DNA of 42,473 nucleotides, from contig MAGU01000036.1 in NCBI GenBank assembly GCA_001717025.1, positions 1 through 42,473 on the forward strand. The letters run 5' to 3'. Of this stretch, positions 22,516 through 31,521 are shown in pieces. Under the pieces are notes generated by a model, which saw only the letters and a program-made list of their open reading frames with translations, had not been told where the DNA came from and searched no databases. A program made the position numbers and the translations under genes. Source of the stretch: Candidatus Methanomethylicus oleisabuli. Lineage in GTDB: Archaea; Thermoproteota; Methanomethylicia; Methanomethylicales; Methanomethylicaceae. Positions within the stretch are counted from its first letter, which is position 1. Each line of letters starts with the position of its first letter.

Positions 22516-23004
22516 ATGCAGACGGCAGACGAATCACGGTTGCCCGTCGACAGAAACGCTAATATCCTTCATGCTTTCTCTCAAAACTGGTGCCGCGATA
22601 TGCGAAAACGCCCTGCCTTAATTCTTGTAATGGTGGCCATCCAAGTAATCATGGTTGCTATAGACCTGCTCATGCCATTCCTTTTGGGCACATACGTAGA
22701 TATGGGCACTACCGACTTCCTGATGGCTTACTTCTACGCGATGCTCGACTTCCTGTTGATATTGGGCTTCCTGCGCGGCGACAAGTGGGCGTTCATCTTC
22801 GGCCTCCTCTTCTCAGGCATAAACCTCACGATGAACGTCTTCTCATACTTTAGCAACCCTGTCCTCCTCTATGCTATAATCATCATACTTAGAGCTATAG
22901 TGATGCTCTGCTTGAGGGACAGCAACGTGAGGATCTACATGGACATGAAGAAGGTAGGTCCAAAAAACCCAAAAAAGGCTGACACGAAGAAGCTCAAGAG
23001 ATGA
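22516..23004 (+). CDS. Multi-spanning membrane protein of unknown function
   Basis: 162 aa with about four hydrophobic segments (PALILVMVAIQVIMVAIDLLMPFLLG...); basic C-terminus. Confidence 0.65.
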   Translation: MQTADESRLPVDRNANILHAFSQNWCRDMRKRPALILVMVAIQVIMVAIDLLMPFLLGTYVDMGTTDFLMAYFYAMLDFLLILGFLRGDKWAFIFGLLFSGINLTMNVFSYFSNPVLLYAIIIILRAIVMLCLRDSNVRIYMDMKKVGPKNPKKADTKKLKR

Positions 23005-23677
23005 GGGGGAACACCTCGTCCCTGATGTAGGACAGGAACTCCTCCTCTTTTACCTTGCTGAAAGCCGTCACGACGGCGCTCCTAGTAACTCCAACGACGA
23101 TGCCGTACCTTCTGGACTTGAAGACCATGTACCATATGCTTCCGCGCGACGAGTATTCGTTGTAAAGCGACGTGTCCGCGAGGCCGGACCCATACAGCGA
23201 CAGCTTGTTTATGTTGGGGATGTCGACGCCGTCGAAGAACATGACCTTCGTGTCCTCTGGGTTCTGCTCGTGGAATCTCTTTAGCGTCTTGGGGTCGATC
23301 TTCGCCTCGGCAATGCTCCCGGTGGCTATGAACAGGATCTTGCTCATCATATTGGCAATGCTGTTCGCCATCGCCTTCTTCTCCAGCACGATCAGGTATA
23401 CCCGTTCCCCGTATTTTGCGAAGAGGAAGGGCGCTTCCAGCGTCTTGGTGACCAGCCTGCTGCCATCCCTGTGCCTGACCTCGAATGCTACGTCGTGGGA
23501 GAATGTGCCTTGCAGCGTGTCTGGCGAGAGGCTAAGCCCGGTGATCTCTGTGACGAGCGGAACCGTCTGGTCCCCATAAGCAAACTCATCCTCTGACCTG
23601 TAGCCTTTCAGCTTACCTGATATCGTTGGGAGGTCCGCCTCCTCCTTGATTATAAAGACCTTGCCCGCAAGAACCAT
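22994..23677 (-). CDS. Conserved-looking archaeal protein of unknown function
   Basis: 227 aa MVLAGKVFIIKEEADLPTISGKLKGYRSEDEFAYGDQTVPLV...; compact alpha/beta composition; convergent overlap of 11 nt with the preceding gene. Confidence 0.65.
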   Translation of the reverse strand: MVLAGKVFIIKEEADLPTISGKLKGYRSEDEFAYGDQTVPLVTEITGLSLSPDTLQGTFSHDVAFEVRHRDGSRLVTKTLEAPFLFAKYGERVYLIVLEKKAMANSIANMMSKILFIATGSIAEAKIDPKTLKRFHEQNPEDTKVMFFDGVDIPNINKLSLYGSGLADTSLYNEYSSRGSIWYMVFKSRRYGIVVGVTRSAVVTAFSKVKEEEFLSYIRDEVFPLIS

Positions 23678-23715: not shown

Positions 23716-25239
23716 TTATCCTTGCGCCCCGTCAACCCACGCGAACCTCCTCTGCAGGGACTTGGTGTAGTAGAGCTTCCAGTCAAAGTCCACCTCCCTC
23801 CCCCAGTCGGCGTATACCCTGGGATCGATGTAGTTCTTAAGCGAAGTGTTGAGGTTATAGTCGCGGGTCGCCCGCATAAGCTTCACCCTCAGCTCGGCCT
23901 CCTTTATCTTCTCGCTCTTTGCATTCCTCTCCTTTAGGAGCTCGAGTCTGGACTTCCTCTTCTTCAGCGCCTCCTCCCAGTTCTTCGGTAGCTTCCTCTT
24001 GTGGTTGCAGACTATTGCAGACTGGAGATTTGCCATCGCGGCATGGTACTTCTTCAGGTAGACCGGATCGCCCTTCTTTACCCCCGACTTGCGGAGCGCC
24101 TCCTTTGTTGTTGTGGACGCATGGAACGTCCTGAACACCTTCGCAGTAAGGTTCTCCATCGCCTGACCGAGGTATTCGTTCACCTTCTGTGATCTGACGC
24201 CGTTGAATATCGTCTCGCCGCCCTCCTCGATGAACTCCTTCAGGTTCTCGATGACGATCTCTGGAGGGTTGATCTTATGGTACCACCTTACCGAGTCCTT
24301 GCCTAAGAAATCGAACGTTACCGTCTTCGCCTCTTCGTCTATTATTACGTGCTCCGCCCTCAGCGTCGTCGCTCCGACTGTATCCGCCTCATCATCGTCC
24401 TTCTCGTCGCCGACCCGCATCTTCAGTGTGTCGATGAGGTAGCAAACCGTGGCGACCTTCCTCTCAACAATGCCGTCCGACTCCATGCCCTTTGAGATGT
24501 AGCGCCGGACCTCATTGATCTTCTTCTCAAGCTCCCATGCCTTGTCGAACTTCTCTATATCCCTTGCCTGCTTGATATACGCCGTGTCCGAGAGCCAGAC
24601 GTATTTCATCTTCCCCCTCAGCTTGTCCTTCCATCTGGCTATCCACAGCGATTCAGCATCGAAGGTGGTGCCTCCCCATCTCCCGCCTCCCGGCGGGACC
24701 GGCGGCTTGACCCCGGGTGACAAGTTGAGCGTTATGTCCTCTGTCATTATCCCGGGTTTCCAGCTCCCTCGCAGAGGGTGCTTCCCCCTTCCCATGAATA
24801 TAGATGCCGGCTCGACGAGGTAGTTGCTGACCTCCATGGGTACGCCGTTGATCTTCGCAAACCCGTACTTCAGCCTGTTCTCTTCCCTCTTGGCCTTCCG
24901 TTCGGCGGCGAGCGCCTTCTTCTCATCTCTGCTCATCGCTTCCCTCTTGGTCCTCTCCGAATCCAGCCACCTCTGTATGGCTGAAAAATCAAAATCTTCT
25001 GGACCGACCCTCCCCTTCAGCTTCATCGCCTTACCGAAGTCCCGGAAGAAGTTGCGCACGAATACTGGATCCGACGAATACTCTGTGGGGATCTTCCTCA
25101 CCCACGCGACCGCCATCTCCTCCTGCTCGGGTGTAAGCTTGACAAAGTTACCCCTGAATCCGATGGAAAATCCCTTGTAGTCATAAGTGGGTACCATGAC
25201 GCCGTTATGCTCCAGCCTCTTGACCTCTATCTTCTCCAT
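23716..25239 (-). CDS. Eukaryotic-type DNA topoisomerase IB
   Basis: 507 aa; EPASIFMGRGKHPLRGSWKPGIMTEDITLNL, WLSDTAYIKQARDIEKFDKAWELEKKI, VATVCYLIDTLKMRVGDEKDDDEADTVGATTLR, and C-terminal NLNTSLKNYIDPRVYADWGR with the catalytic Tyr context. Confidence 0.95.
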   Translation of the reverse strand: MEKIEVKRLEHNGVMVPTYDYKGFSIGFRGNFVKLTPEQEEMAVAWVRKIPTEYSSDPVFVRNFFRDFGKAMKLKGRVGPEDFDFSAIQRWLDSERTKREAMSRDEKKALAAERKAKREENRLKYGFAKINGVPMEVSNYLVEPASIFMGRGKHPLRGSWKPGIMTEDITLNLSPGVKPPVPPGGGRWGGTTFDAESLWIARWKDKLRGKMKYVWLSDTAYIKQARDIEKFDKAWELEKKINEVRRYISKGMESDGIVERKVATVCYLIDTLKMRVGDEKDDDEADTVGATTLRAEHVIIDEEAKTVTFDFLGKDSVRWYHKINPPEIVIENLKEFIEEGGETIFNGVRSQKVNEYLGQAMENLTAKVFRTFHASTTTKEALRKSGVKKGDPVYLKKYHAAMANLQSAIVCNHKRKLPKNWEEALKKRKSRLELLKERNAKSEKIKEAELRVKLMRATRDYNLNTSLKNYIDPRVYADWGREVDFDWKLYYTKSLQRRFAWVDGAQG

Positions 25240-25454: not shown

Positions 25455-27230
25455 TTGGGGGCTGCAAATACGTCGAAGTTGACTATACTTGAGGTCATCC
25501 TCGAGAACTTCATGTCGTACGAGTATGCCAGGGTCCCCCTCCGGCGGGGGCTCAACCTCATATGCGGCCCCAACGGCGCAGGAAAATCATCAGTCCTGCT
25601 CGCCATCTCGGTAGCAACCGGTCAGAGCTACACCGAGCGTTCTAGGAAGCTCGCAGACCTCATAAGGAGGGGCAAGGAGACTGCGAGGGTTAGCCTGGTC
25701 CTCAATAACTATGCCGAGGATGGCAAAAGGCCCGTTCCGCTGATAAACAGCGACTTGATCACGGTCTCGCGCTATCTTAAGAAGGATGGAACATACTGGT
25801 TCGAGATAAACGGTAAAGAGGCCAGCAAGTTCGATGTCAACAACCTCTTCAAGCGAGTAGGCATGAATCCTGACAACATGCTCATAATAATGCACCAGAA
25901 CATGATCGAGGAGTTTGCGATAACAACCCCTGAAGAGAAGCTGCGGATGGTCGAGGAGGCTGTCGGGTTCTCGCAGTACCGGAAGGCCATCTATGAGTCG
26001 GAGGAGAAGCTGAACCGCATCCTAGGGGAGGAGGCTGCGACCTCGCAGCTCCTCTCGAGCGCCGAGCAGACGCTACTATACTGGAAGGAGCTGAACGACC
26101 GCTATGCCGAGAAGGTGTCGCTCCTTGAAAGGAAGTCCTTCGTTGAGAGGGAGATGATGTGGGCACAGATCATACGCAGCGAGCGCTCGCTCGCCGCTGT
26201 GGATGAGCGCATACGCCTGAAGTCATCGCAGCAGGAAGACCTGGCCGCCGAGATCTCATCGAGGTCGAAGCTCGGGAATGCCCTCTGGGAGCAGTACCTC
26301 GCCGAGAAGGAGCGGTTCAGGAGGGCACTCGCCGGCGGCGGTGCGTCTGACGACCTTCTGAAGGAGGTTGGGACGGTCAGCTCCAAGCTCGATGAAGTGG
26401 TCCGGGGATACGTCGACGCGAAGGTCAGCGAGGCCGTCCTCACTTACAGGATTGGCGAGGTAGGGAAGGAGCTCAAGGAGCTAAACAGCGCCCGCGGAGA
26501 TGCCAAGGCGCAGCTCGACGAGGCACGCAAGCTTATCGATAAGGCGGGCGAGCGGATAGAAACCTCCAGGACTTTGCAGGAGATCTCAGACGAGATGAAG
26601 TTCTTGAACGCCCACCTGCTCTCCCTCGGCGAGATACCCGACGACACGCCTTCGATGTATCAGACCTACCAGAGGACCTACAGCGAGCTGAAGCAGAAGG
26701 CAGATGTCGTGGGCATCAACAGGAAGAAGGCGATCGAGGAGATAGACGAGCGGAAGAACGTCTGGCGCAGGGTGATGGAACGTCTGGTAGACGATATAAA
26801 CCCCATCTACCACGAGGTTCTAGCCAAGGTTGGAGGGCTCGGAAACGTTAGGCTCTCAAATCTGGATGATCCGGATCATGCTGGGGTAGAGGTCTCGGTA
26901 GGCTTCAGGGGGACCTCTCCGGTCCTGCTCGATGCATACGCGCAGAGTGGGGGGGAGAGGGCGGTAGCAACGATGGCCTTCCTGCTTGCGCTGCAGCACA
27001 ATCTGAAATCTCCAGTTCGTGCAGTCGATGAGTTTGATGTGCACATGGACCCTTCGAACAGGGAGTCCATGATGCGCATGCTCTTCTCTTTCATGAACGA
27101 GAATTCGGACGTCCAATTCATCGTGATCACTCCAAGCCAGCTGAGCGCCATTGGCGAGTTTGCAAACATCATATTCGTCCAGAACGTTCACGGCAGATCG
27201 GAGGTGGCAAAGGCTGCCCCAAAGCCATAA
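25455..27230 (+). CDS. Smc5-like SMC-family ATPase with short arms and no obvious hinge
   Basis: 591 aa. N-term ILEVILENFMSYEYARVPLRRGLNLICGPNGAGKSSVLLAISVATG; MLIIMHQNMIEEFAITTPEEKLRMVEEAVG; C-term VGGLGNVRLSNLDDPDHAGVEVSVGFRG...YAQSGGERAVATMAFLLALQ...VRAVDEFDVHMDPSNRESMMRM...VQFIVITPSQL. Order and wording resemble Smc5 heads. TTG start uncertain. Confidence 0.85.
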   Translation: MGAANTSKLTILEVILENFMSYEYARVPLRRGLNLICGPNGAGKSSVLLAISVATGQSYTERSRKLADLIRRGKETARVSLVLNNYAEDGKRPVPLINSDLITVSRYLKKDGTYWFEINGKEASKFDVNNLFKRVGMNPDNMLIIMHQNMIEEFAITTPEEKLRMVEEAVGFSQYRKAIYESEEKLNRILGEEAATSQLLSSAEQTLLYWKELNDRYAEKVSLLERKSFVEREMMWAQIIRSERSLAAVDERIRLKSSQQEDLAAEISSRSKLGNALWEQYLAEKERFRRALAGGGASDDLLKEVGTVSSKLDEVVRGYVDAKVSEAVLTYRIGEVGKELKELNSARGDAKAQLDEARKLIDKAGERIETSRTLQEISDEMKFLNAHLLSLGEIPDDTPSMYQTYQRTYSELKQKADVVGINRKKAIEEIDERKNVWRRVMERLVDDINPIYHEVLAKVGGLGNVRLSNLDDPDHAGVEVSVGFRGTSPVLLDAYAQSGGERAVATMAFLLALQHNLKSPVRAVDEFDVHMDPSNRESMMRMLFSFMNENSDVQFIVITPSQLSAIGEFANIIFVQNVHGRSEVAKAAPKP

Positions 27231-28011
27231 TGAAGGGTATTACGATGAGCTGGCGAGGATAATACTCCTATGCGAGAGCATAAGCACGAAGAGCGACGAC
27301 CCATTCCTAGTCGATGTGCCGCAGAAGCTTCTAGTCCTGAAGCGGCTCCTCCCCAAATGGAAGGCGATCGATGATCTGCTCCTCGACGCCGAGGCGTTGA
27401 AGGAGCTCTCCTTGATGGTAAAGCTCCAGAGCGATTGGGTAAAGCGCAGGGCTACGGGGCTATACATTGACCCCTTTCTGGTAGAGGTAAAGATCAAGGT
27501 GATGCCAAAGGAATCGCTGGCCTCGGCGCTCTTGGCATCCTGGCACCCCATCGTCGCTGGGGAGCAGCTGACCGAGGGCAGGCTGTCAAGGGCACTCGAT
27601 TACTGGAACGCGCTCGTCCCCCTATCCCAGCGCGTGAGCGAGCTTGACGCCGCGAGGGATATGCAGGAGAAGACCTTGAGCGTCTCGGACCTAATCAAGC
27701 TCAGGTTCCTCTCGGACAAGATCTTTCAGGAGGAGACGTCGAAGGTGCTCTCCGAGCTAAAGGAGCGGTCAAAAGGCGGCGCCATCGACTACTGGCACTT
27801 CGTAACGGTCGACACCTACGAAGAAACCGTTATGAGATCGTATGCGCTGACCTTCCTGATCTCAAACGGTTATGCCAACCTTATCATAAACCCGATAGAA
27901 GAGACGGTCATGGTTGAGGCGTTACCGGCGCAGGAGCAGAAGAGCAGCGGCGGCAGGTCCGTGCCGATAGCTGTAAGCTACTCAAAGTGGAAAGAGATGC
28001 GGGGTTTGTAA
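27151..28011 (+). CDS. Nse4-like kleisin candidate
   Basis: C-terminal IDYWHFVTVDTYEETVMRSYALTFLISNGYANLIINPIEETVMVEALPAQEQKSSGGRSVPIAVSYSKWKEMRGL resembles the Nse4 C-terminal domain pattern. Start ambiguous: TTG 27151/27160, or CTG 27214 behind ggaggtgg; no in-frame ATG near the start. Confidence 0.65.
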   Translation: MASLQTSYSSRTFTADRRWQRLPQSHNEGYYDELARIILLCESISTKSDDPFLVDVPQKLLVLKRLLPKWKAIDDLLLDAEALKELSLMVKLQSDWVKRRATGLYIDPFLVEVKIKVMPKESLASALLASWHPIVAGEQLTEGRLSRALDYWNALVPLSQRVSELDAARDMQEKTLSVSDLIKLRFLSDKIFQEETSKVLSELKERSKGGAIDYWHFVTVDTYEETVMRSYALTFLISNGYANLIINPIEETVMVEALPAQEQKSSGGRSVPIAVSYSKWKEMRGL

Positions 28012-28012
28012 G

Positions 28013-28594
28013 ATGAGCGAGGATGCGACGATATCAAAGAAGGTGAAGAAGGCAGCTCAGCTGCTGCTCTACCAGCACCACCGCCTTCCAGGCTCCAAGG
28101 GATGGGAGATAAAGAAGGTCATCGGGAAGGATTATATGAATGTCATAAAGCTGCTGGAGCGCAAGCTCGACGACCTTGGGCTGGAGATCAAGATAGTCTA
28201 CCCTGACGGCATAGATCGCGTGAGCCCCACCGAATACGATCTCGAGCAGGCGAGGTTTTACGTCCTCTCCAAGGTCCCGATACAGAGCGGCGAGGCATCG
28301 CTCTCTGGCTGGCGGATCGACACGCTTGCAGTTCTTGCGGCAGCACTCGCCACGATCACCTCCAAGCAAGGGAAGGCGACGAGGAGGGAGGTCGAGGAGC
28401 TTCTCCAGGAGAAGTTCCCTGACTGGAAGGTGGATCAGGACCTCAACCGCTTCATAAGGAGGGGATACCTAGACGAAGACGAGTCAGGCATGCTCTTCAT
28501 CGGATGGCGGACGAGGGCCGAGGTCGACTTGAAGAAGCTAATGGGCATCGTTGCCGGCTCGTTGCCCGAGGAGCATGCGGACGAGGTCGGCTGA
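28013..28594 (+). CDS. Nse3/MAGE-like tandem winged-helix (KITE) protein candidate
   Basis: 193 aa; EIKKVIGKDYMNVIKLLERKLDDLGLEIKIVYPDG then LAVLAAALATITSKQGKATRREVEELLQEKFPDWKVDQDLNRFIRRGYLDEDESGMLFIGWRTRAEVDLKKLMGIVA, resembling MAGE WH-A and WH-B including the ...YL...FxWGxRAxxE segment. Confidence 0.65.
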   Translation: MSEDATISKKVKKAAQLLLYQHHRLPGSKGWEIKKVIGKDYMNVIKLLERKLDDLGLEIKIVYPDGIDRVSPTEYDLEQARFYVLSKVPIQSGEASLSGWRIDTLAVLAAALATITSKQGKATRREVEELLQEKFPDWKVDQDLNRFIRRGYLDEDESGMLFIGWRTRAEVDLKKLMGIVAGSLPEEHADEVG

Positions 28595-28638: not shown

Positions 28639-31521
28639 TCACGGGCGCGGTCTGCGCATACGCATGCGCGCCTTCATGGCCGTCCGCTCCTCCCGCAGTA
28701 TCGTGTCAACAAAGTAGTCCAGATCGCCGATCTTAGACGTCGCCAGGGTGATCATGACCGGTTTGGATATCCCCTTAGCAGCCAGAGCAAGTGCCGCCGA
28801 CAGCCCATATGCTCCTACGAGCTCCCCGCTCTCTATCGCCTCTTTGTATATGCCTTTGAACCTCTCCGAGACCCTATCTAGTTCTGACCTCTCGGCCGCC
28901 ATCTGCGCAACCTCGGTGGGGTCATCGCTTAGTAGGCCTATCTTCTTGGAGCCACATTCAGGGCAGCTGAACTCTGCCATGAACCTCTTCACCTTGACGT
29001 TCTCCACGTATCTGAAGCAGTTGGTGCAGACCGCGACCATCGCCTCGTTCAGGAGCCTCGCCTTGCCCGATTCTATGAGCAGCCTCCTTAGCCTGTCGGC
29101 CGGCACCAGATCTGTCTTCCAGCTCAGCTCCCTTATGCCTATTCTCGACATGGGCGAGAGCGGCAGGTCGCCCCGCATCACCCTTACATTATACTCCCCT
29201 GCGATAATGCCCCTGACGACCTTGGTAGTGCCCTCCACGTCTAGGTCCTTGAAGAGCACCTCCTTCATCGCCTCCTTGTATATGACCGTACCCCTCAGGT
29301 TCTCGAGCAGGTGGGTCAGGCCCACATCGCTGACATCGGCGTCCTTCTCGATGATCCCCATCCTCTTTGAGACGTGGAGGAGCCTCCTCTTGAACAAGCC
29401 GGTCCTCTCGACAGCGACGCCGGTGAGGCGCTCGACGTCGCCAGGCTCTATCGCACTAATCGCCTCGGCAACCATCTGCGGGTCAGCGCTCGTCTTAAGG
29501 AAGATCCTATACGCATCTTGGGATGCCCCTGCCCCGCTGCCTGTCCTCTGGGTCAGAACGTATCCAAAAATTCTTGAGAGCGTCTTGTTGATCATCAGGC
29601 CGAATGCGCAGCTTATTATCGCGTACCCCTCCCACCCCTCGATAGTGATGACCTTATCTGACGGCATGTCCCAGCCGCCGTCGGCCTGTTCCCTCACCTC
29701 GGCGAGGGCCCTGCCGAGTGTGGCCTCGTTTACTGGGTAGTCGACCGCGATACTCTTTATCGCCTCGTCATACGGCATGCCGGACTTCAGGTAGCCTGCT
29801 ACCCTTCCCCTGATAGATGCTACCTCTTGAGCCACCTCAAAAGGAACCGGTATCTCATCACCGACCCAGTCCGGAATTGCCCCCGACGGGTCCTGCTCTG
29901 CCCTGACGTAGACCGCGTCGTTGAATATCTGCACGATCTTCCAAGGCGACCCCCTGACGATGAACTTTACTCCGGGTTCGCCATACTCCGCAACGAACGC
30001 CTCGTCGAGCATCCCTATAGGCTCGTCCTTACCCTCATCTATGACTACGTAGTGCTTCTCCTCCGGGATCATTGAAAGGTTTTCAAAGTAGTATTTGTAG
30101 AGCGCCTCCGTTGGCCTGGACTTTATGAATAGCCCCTCCTCCTTCAGGAGCAGACCAAGCCTCGGCCTCCTGTTTGCCATGTACTCCAGCACCTCCATCA
30201 GCTCCCCCTCCTCCAGGTCCCTGAATGGGTAGGCCCTCCTCACTATCCCCAGTATCTCCCCTGTCTCCCTCCTTCCATCCTCGAGCAGCAGCCCCGCCAC
30301 CTGCTGGCAGAGGACATCGAGCGGGCTCTTAACGATCGAAACATCCTCGAGCTCCTCCTTGAGTGACCTCTTGACTATGACCGTGGACTCTAGCGCATCG
30401 TCCGAGTCCATCGTTATTATTACGCCCTTGGAGGTACCGCCGACCCAGTGCCCGGCCCTGCCGACCCGCTGGAGTAGCCTGGTCGCCTGCCTAGGAGAGT
30501 TGTACTGAACCACTAGGTCGACGTTCCCGATGTCGATGCCAAGCTCGAGTGACGATGTGCAGACGACCCCCCTTAGCTCGCCCTTCTTGAGGCTGTTCTC
30601 CACGTCAACCCTCGACGGCTTCGCGAGGCTCCCATGGTGTATGCTGATCGGCATATCGATATCCCAAACCCTGAACCTGCTTGCGAGTATCTCCGCCTCT
30701 GAACGCGTATTAGTGAATATGAGCGTGGAGCGGTTCTCATCTATGAGCTCCCTAATCTTCCTGAGCCTCGCCGCGACCTCCGGGAATGTGGCTATCCTCT
30801 CGGCGAGTTCATAGTCCCTCTGCTCCGCCTCAGGGAGGAGCACGTCCAGTTGCGTGTCCTTCGCAACCGACACCCTTGCTATCTCGCAAGCTCTGCTGGG
30901 ACCGACGAGGAACTTCGCGACGACCTCTGGCGAGCCTATTGTGGCGGAGAGGCCTATTATCTGCGGCTCGGTCTGCGTGAGCATACGGAGCCTCTCGAGC
31001 GCGACCGTCAGCTGGCTGCCCCTCTTGTCGTTTGTGAGCTCGTGGACCTCATCCACGATGATCCACCTCACCTTCGACAGATGCCTCCTGAGTATCTTGC
31101 CTGGCAGTATAGCCTCCAGCGTCTCGGGCGTAGTTATCATTATGTCTGGCGGCGCCATCGCCTGCTTCCCCCTCTCCTTCGTCTCAGTATCGCCGTGCCT
31201 GACCGCAACCTTCAGGTCAAGCCTCCCACACCACCACTGCAGCCTGTCCATCAGATCCCTGTTGAGTGCCCTGAGCGGCGAGATGTAGAGCGCTCTGATG
31301 CCGCTCCTGTCGCCGTCCTTTATCAGGCTGTCCAGTATGGGAAGGAACGCCGCCTCAGTCTTGCCGGTACCCGTCGGGGCTATTATCAGCACGTTCTTGC
31401 CGGAGGCTATGAGGGGTATCGCCATCCTCTGCGGCTCGGTGAATCCCTCAAACCCCCTCTCCGCGATTATCCTCTGTATAGGCTTTGAGAACAACGGCAG
31501 AAGATCATCCATAAGGATCAA
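28639..31521 (-). CDS. lhr: Lhr-type DEAD/DEAH superfamily 2 helicase
   Basis: 960 aa; APTGTGKTEAAFLPIL, IIVDEVHEL, GLSATIGSPE, SLELGIDIGNVDLVVQYNSPRQATRLLQRVGRAGH; C-terminal zinc site CTNCFRY...CPECGSKKIG. Confidence 0.93.
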   Translation of the reverse strand: MILMDDLLPLFSKPIQRIIAERGFEGFTEPQRMAIPLIASGKNVLIIAPTGTGKTEAAFLPILDSLIKDGDRSGIRALYISPLRALNRDLMDRLQWWCGRLDLKVAVRHGDTETKERGKQAMAPPDIMITTPETLEAILPGKILRRHLSKVRWIIVDEVHELTNDKRGSQLTVALERLRMLTQTEPQIIGLSATIGSPEVVAKFLVGPSRACEIARVSVAKDTQLDVLLPEAEQRDYELAERIATFPEVAARLRKIRELIDENRSTLIFTNTRSEAEILASRFRVWDIDMPISIHHGSLAKPSRVDVENSLKKGELRGVVCTSSLELGIDIGNVDLVVQYNSPRQATRLLQRVGRAGHWVGGTSKGVIITMDSDDALESTVIVKRSLKEELEDVSIVKSPLDVLCQQVAGLLLEDGRRETGEILGIVRRAYPFRDLEEGELMEVLEYMANRRPRLGLLLKEEGLFIKSRPTEALYKYYFENLSMIPEEKHYVVIDEGKDEPIGMLDEAFVAEYGEPGVKFIVRGSPWKIVQIFNDAVYVRAEQDPSGAIPDWVGDEIPVPFEVAQEVASIRGRVAGYLKSGMPYDEAIKSIAVDYPVNEATLGRALAEVREQADGGWDMPSDKVITIEGWEGYAIISCAFGLMINKTLSRIFGYVLTQRTGSGAGASQDAYRIFLKTSADPQMVAEAISAIEPGDVERLTGVAVERTGLFKRRLLHVSKRMGIIEKDADVSDVGLTHLLENLRGTVIYKEAMKEVLFKDLDVEGTTKVVRGIIAGEYNVRVMRGDLPLSPMSRIGIRELSWKTDLVPADRLRRLLIESGKARLLNEAMVAVCTNCFRYVENVKVKRFMAEFSCPECGSKKIGLLSDDPTEVAQMAAERSELDRVSERFKGIYKEAIESGELVGAYGLSAALALAAKGISKPVMITLATSKIGDLDYFVDTILREERTAMKARMRMRRPRP

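Follow-up and report, generated by a model that had tools for sequence, protein, structure and literature searches.

A hinge-less, probably Smc5/6-related SMC-kleisin-KITE operon in the archaeal class Methanomethylicia

Three adjacent genes of Candidatus Methanomethylicus oleisabuli very probably (roughly 85% by our estimate) encode a minimal complex of SMC, kleisin and KITE that belongs to the Smc5/6 lineage. The window analysed was the whole stretch of 42,473 nucleotides (contig MAGU01000036.1, assembly GCA_001717025.1), from a genome of 1.37 Mb that is 95% complete; mcrA was present in this genome and in every searched member of its family. A relative of Smc5/6 had been proposed at this site in a sequence-only reading, and the profile and tree of gene 1, the profile of gene 2 and the fold of gene 3 all agree with that proposal. 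The evidence supports relatedness to Smc5/6, short of the status of a direct precursor. Conservation of the genes, their relatedness and the absence of the hinge are established, while the winged-helix folds are predicted.

Open reading frames in the window confirmed three genes on the same strand (+) at 25455-28594. The spacing was as claimed, genes 1 and 2 overlapping and genes 2 and 3 being separated by 1 nt. The motifs cited earlier (among them, for gene 1, ENFMSYE, GPNGAGKSS and QFIVITPSQL) were all found in the translation. The operon and its neighbours are as follows.

22994..23677, - strand: 227-aa product matching nothing in Pfam or the PDB, possible associated gene
23716-25239, - strand: eukaryote-type topoisomerase IB, directly upstream of and divergent from the SMC operon
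25455..27230, + strand: gene 1, 591 aa, TTG start, hinge-less SMC5/6-related ATPase
27151..28011, + strand: gene 2, 286 aa from TTG, Nse4-like kleisin, true start uncertain
28013..28594, + strand: gene 3, 193 aa, ATG start, KITE (tandem winged-helix) protein of the MAGE/Nse1/Nse3 type
28639-31521, - strand: Lhr-type helicase, downstream of the SMC operon

The gene 2 product measures 259-286 aa depending on the start used (end at 28011); two things make that start uncertain, the overlap of its first 80 nt with gene 1 and differences among relatives in this stretch. When compared with a same-genus genome, dN/dS was 0.042 for gene 1, 0.112 for gene 2 (compared from 27190, its first codons overlapping gene 1) and 0.083 for gene 3, and all three genes are therefore under purifying selection. 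Of 24 sampled Thermoproteota loci examined with profile searches, 21 have the SMC, kleisin and KITE genes adjacent, in one order and all facing the same way. One of the three exceptional loci ends at a contig edge, another carries the KITE gene at a different place in the genome, and in the third genes 2 and 3 lie roughly 2 kb off and face the other way. Given this recurrence and the low dN/dS, the three-gene set is not a chance association, as had been argued from the sequence.

Relatives of gene 1 were present in nearly all members of the source family and are widespread in the phylum. The KITE profile matched 154 of 399 Thermoproteota genomes, representing 81 of 172 genera. A pattern scan of contigs was too general, returning mostly canonical SMC, and yielded three true members (a Thermofilales MAG, 'Thaumarchaeota' UBA160 and a Bathyarchaeota MAG). 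No members were found on viral contigs. The source genome holds one SMC-type gene, as does each genome of its family, barring genes split between contigs and Rad50 matches. At 13 of 24 Thermoproteota loci the strongly conserved 227-aa gene (motif FFDNVDIPNIxKLSLYG) is the operon's divergently oriented neighbour, with topoisomerase IB sitting between the two in the source window; its product is a possible candidate for a fourth partner. The divergent arrangement of topoisomerase IB and the SMC operon was also seen in locus L038.

Gene 1 carries a Walker A motif (GPNGAGKSS), a signature motif (QSGGER) and a Walker B/D-loop (RAVDEFDVHMDP). A short coiled-coil hairpin tipped by GGGASD takes up its central part (about residues 200-435), and members of its family total 579-699 aa. 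The lack of a hinge noted earlier was borne out, PF06470 not being listed in the Pfam search even at E values up to 10. An apex motif (YVDAKVSEA) was tried as a conserved feature and rejected, since its conservation (0.40-0.45) was not clearly above the arm background (0.27-0.65).

The ten best matches of the gene 1 family profile against PDB sequences were Smc5 and Smc6 (183-229 bits), with yeast Smc5 at 229, yeast Smc6 at 219, human Smc6 at 213 and human Smc5 at 183 bits. Canonical SMC reached at most 168 bits, and cohesin and condensin SMC proteins and Rad50 also scored below Smc5 and Smc6. A maximum likelihood tree of the head was built from concatenated N- and C-head segments (332 columns, Rad50 root), with human and yeast Smc5 and Smc6 (PDB alignments) as the only eukaryotic references, SMC1-4 being left out. 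In this tree, which contains long branches, the Thermoproteota gene 1 family grouped with Smc5 and Smc6 at 98.6/99 (SH-aLRT/UFBoot), and at 94.7/99 with the hinged Asgard group A added. The corresponding split in a larger tree of all Asgard groups received 94/98. The claim that gene 1 is nearer to Smc5 than to canonical SMC or Rad50 thus stood, with the addition that the tree places it with both Smc5 and Smc6.

Gene 2 is supported, by family profile and predicted structure, as a kleisin closest to Nse4. Against PDB sequences its profile found human NSE4B/EID3 first (3.2e-5) and yeast Nse4 at 0.0022, followed by ScpA at 0.06 and weaker. The predicted structure (pLDDT 63, weak) has helices at the N-terminus, one of them long, and a winged helix at the C-terminus. 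With Foldseek (all E-values >0.01) the model gave Nse4 as the best match, and next the C-terminal winged helix of ScpA (TM 0.77 over 69 residues). The Pfam match expected of an Nse4 was not obtained from the single sequence, for which no Pfam or NCBIfam family scored above threshold; identification as Nse4-like was upheld by the family profile.

For gene 3, no Pfam or NCBIfam family was found above threshold with the single sequence, and the family profile gave no match among PDB sequences, so that a MAGE/Nse3 identity was sustained by the predicted fold and not by Pfam. The model (pLDDT 74, moderate) is a tandem winged helix. When searched against 350,542 PDB chains, its best seven matches were MAGE-G1/NSE1, Nse1-Nse3-Nse4 complexes, MAGE-A3 and MAGE-A4, with MukE ranking after the MAGE/Nse chains. 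Two of the best matches have TM-scores of 0.60-0.65; several others superpose poorly globally, perhaps because the two winged helices differ in orientation. A KITE fold closest to MAGE, Nse3 and Nse1 is supported by this model. A sucrose-phosphatase match to gene 3 (3e-4) was discarded, being far under the cut-off and without support from the fold. Because single-sequence Pfam matches were absent, the link of genes 2 and 3 to Nse4 and MAGE draws on family profiles and predicted fold.

The hinge family PF06470 was found in none of the 40 Methanomethylicia genomes searched, 23 of which are at least 90% complete; it was present in 11 of 21 other Thermoproteota genomes. ScpA (PF02616) was likewise found in none of the 40, by a model that is weakly sensitive here (4 of 61 genomes matched). 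Since both were absent from all 40 genomes, the hinge-less complex is apparently the only SMC-kleisin complex of its class. In families f3 and f6 of Methanomethylicia neither this operon nor a canonical SMC system was found.

Relatives were also found outside the phylum. The Thermoproteota KITE profile matched 7 of 231 Asgard genomes, and 65 (about 50 strongly) after those sequences had been added. Asgard group A has an SMC of about 835 aa with a hinge (E = 1e-13), followed by kleisin and KITE genes in the Thermoproteota order, and its operon adjoins genes for an AAA ATPase, a RING protein, an M48 peptidase with RING, an E2 with RING and an E1. In groups B and C the SMC is 964-1001 aa, its placement near Smc6 being weakly supported (90.4/60), and there is an extra zinc-finger gene. 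The middle genes of these two groups are termed kleisin-sized rather than kleisins because no PDB relative was found with their profiles, nor with those of the KITE proteins. Asgard KITE proteins matched Pfam MAGE weakly (0.014 and 0.033). Some group C loci also carry JAMM, E1 and E2-like genes. Ubiquitin-type genes (E1/ThiF, E2, RING, JAMM) thus lie beside SMC5/6-like operons in two separate Asgard groups; no homologues of the Asgard RING, E1, E2 or JAMM genes were found at the Thermoproteota loci. The zinc-finger protein (147-162 aa) is conserved as the fourth gene of the B and C operons and matched no Pfam family above threshold. Strong KITE matches were obtained in 28 of 249 genomes (about 11%) of a euryarchaeal phylum centred on 'Euryarchaeota archaeon BL5_bin.18'. 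The loci concerned are listed below.

L188 1527-9404 and L165 4950-12998; also L163, L164, L198, L186 and L187: Asgard operons with ubiquitin-type neighbours
L166 8309-8761; equivalents in L167, L168, L186-L191, L193-L196 and L204: Asgard zinc-finger gene
L207-L212 (phylum of G418): euryarchaeal KITE loci

The most serious alternative, though an improbable one, is that the operon encodes a canonical SMC-ScpAB (bacterial/archaeal condensin), shortened by loss of the hinge, in which genes 2 and 3 would be divergent forms of ScpA and ScpB. Searched alone, gene 1 does have its top NCBIfam score with the canonical SMC model TIGR02169, no Smc5/6 model being listed there, Pyrococcus Smc stands level with Smc5 in the single-sequence search, and gene 2 has its weak match to ScpA. 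However, with the family profile every canonical SMC is outranked by Smc5 and Smc6, and the head tree agrees, with the AU test marginally rejecting a forced grouping of the gene 1 family with canonical SMC (p = 0.042). Nse4 ranks above ScpA for gene 2, the fold of gene 3 gives MAGE, Nse1 and Nse3 with ScpB absent among the best 50 PDB matches, and elsewhere in the phylum single genomes have a hinge-bearing canonical SMC at a separate place in addition to this operon. A defence system of the Wadjet/MukBEF kind, directed against plasmids, would have the same three component types, and gene 1 matches the JetC model in PADLOC (2.5e-10). It is very unlikely here, as PADLOC gave no match for genes 2 and 3, the operon has no JetD-type (nuclease) gene, and near-universal presence in the source family is unlike a defence island. 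The gene order of JetABCD also differs from SMC-kleisin-KITE.

We give very little credence to a third explanation, a coalescin/ASRP- or Rad50-like hook protein beside two unrelated neighbours. The missing hinge and small size of gene 1 are reminiscent of coalescin, a relation raised in the sequence-only reading, and the ASRP model is matched at E = 1e-13. This score is weaker than that of canonical SMC in NCBIfam, a CxxC hook was absent in 22 of 22 family members, and the suggested relation was not upheld. Grouping with Rad50 was clearly rejected (AU test, p = 0.001). The kleisin and KITE partners are conserved across the phylum, whereas published ASRPs are without conserved neighbours (PMC9389158). 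Gene 1 falling firmly within Rad50, RecN or canonical SMC with no Nse4 or MAGE signal, the contrary outcome named beforehand, was checked and did not occur.

Counting against the Smc5/6-lineage assignment, which we prefer, are the presence of one KITE and one SMC type versus two of each in Smc5/6, and the need for the SMC protein to dimerise with no hinge. In Smc5/6 and Smc-ScpAB a kleisin links the two SMC heads, and KITE contacts both this kleisin and DNA, as in an ATP-gated clamp. By analogy, we infer the following stoichiometry, subunit contacts, DNA binding, clamp action and cellular role for the archaeal complex. Two copies of the gene 1 product would pair via ATP-bound heads, bridged by the kleisin, whose N-terminal helices would hold the neck of one SMC while its C-terminal winged helix held the head of the second. 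The KITE protein would sit on the middle of the kleisin and grip double-stranded DNA atop the engaged heads; ATP binding would clamp the DNA, and hydrolysis would release or shift it. With no hinge and only short arms (a coiled-coil hairpin of about 12 nm), the complex would most likely clamp DNA locally and not extrude loops with long arms. As what would be the sole SMC-kleisin complex of the class, it may help to maintain the chromosome, or take part in recombination and the repair of replication.

A broader evolutionary scenario is offered tentatively, with the odds somewhat against it. The archaeal complexes might represent an ancestral Smc5/6, an ancient SMC-Nse4-KITE operon having become the eukaryotic complex by duplication. 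Asgard operons would already have had the tie to ubiquitin-type ligases, represented today by Nse1 and Nse2, and Methanomethylicia would have reduced the complex to a hinge-less clamp as their only SMC complex.

An archaeal 'SMC5/6-related' SMC clade grouping with SMC5 and SMC6 has already been published (PMC9389158, citing Yoshinaga and Inagaki 2021), and gene 1 very probably belongs to the same or an overlapping clade. In the available passages of the 2022 text, no kleisin or Nse protein is mentioned. No description of the kleisin and KITE partners, the operon, the hinge loss, the sole-complex status or the Asgard ubiquitin link was found in open-licence PMC literature. The clade is thus already known, and its kleisin-KITE operon and hinge loss, found in no paper searched, are apparently new. 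Methanosuratincola petrocarbonis is a cultured member of Methanomethylicia (PMC12244365).

Coalescin and ASRPs are also small archaeal SMC-like proteins without an SMC hinge, but most ASRPs have a zinc hook (PMC9389158) and the gene 1 family has none. MukBEF and Wadjet co-encode SMC, kleisin and KITE as the archaeal operon does; gene 1, however, is not MukB/JetC-like, JetD nuclease is lacking and the gene 3 fold is nearer to MAGE than to MukE. Canonical archaeal SMC-ScpA shares the SMC head and kleisin bridge but is hinged and long-armed. In archaea, ScpA prevails with no KITE partner (PMC7055376), and a KITE-bearing archaeal complex is notable because canonical archaeal SMC complexes have been reported without one.

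The likeness is greatest to eukaryotic Smc5/6, gene 1 having QSGGER as in Smc5 and DEFDVxMD as in Smc6, with a kleisin nearest to Nse4 and a KITE fold nearest to MAGE, Nse3 and Nse1. Smc5/6 has two different SMC proteins and two KITEs (Nse1, Nse3), whereas the archaeal operon has one SMC gene, hinge-less and with short arms, and one KITE with MAGE, Nse1 and Nse3 as best folds. Eukaryotic Smc5/6 includes a RING subunit (Nse1) and a SUMO ligase (Nse2), and no such domain is present in the source operon; nor do we know of Nse5/6 in the archaeal complex. To our knowledge, Smc5/6 is the one eukaryotic SMC complex to have retained KITE subunits and to bear ubiquitin and SUMO ligases. Its origin, and the reasons for these two features, are questions that an archaeal relative could address. 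If it is indeed the sole complex of its class, the hinge-less form tests the need for hinge and long arms in SMC function, and with its Nse4-like and MAGE-like partners it offers a compact, expressible and solvable outgroup for the origin of Smc5/6.
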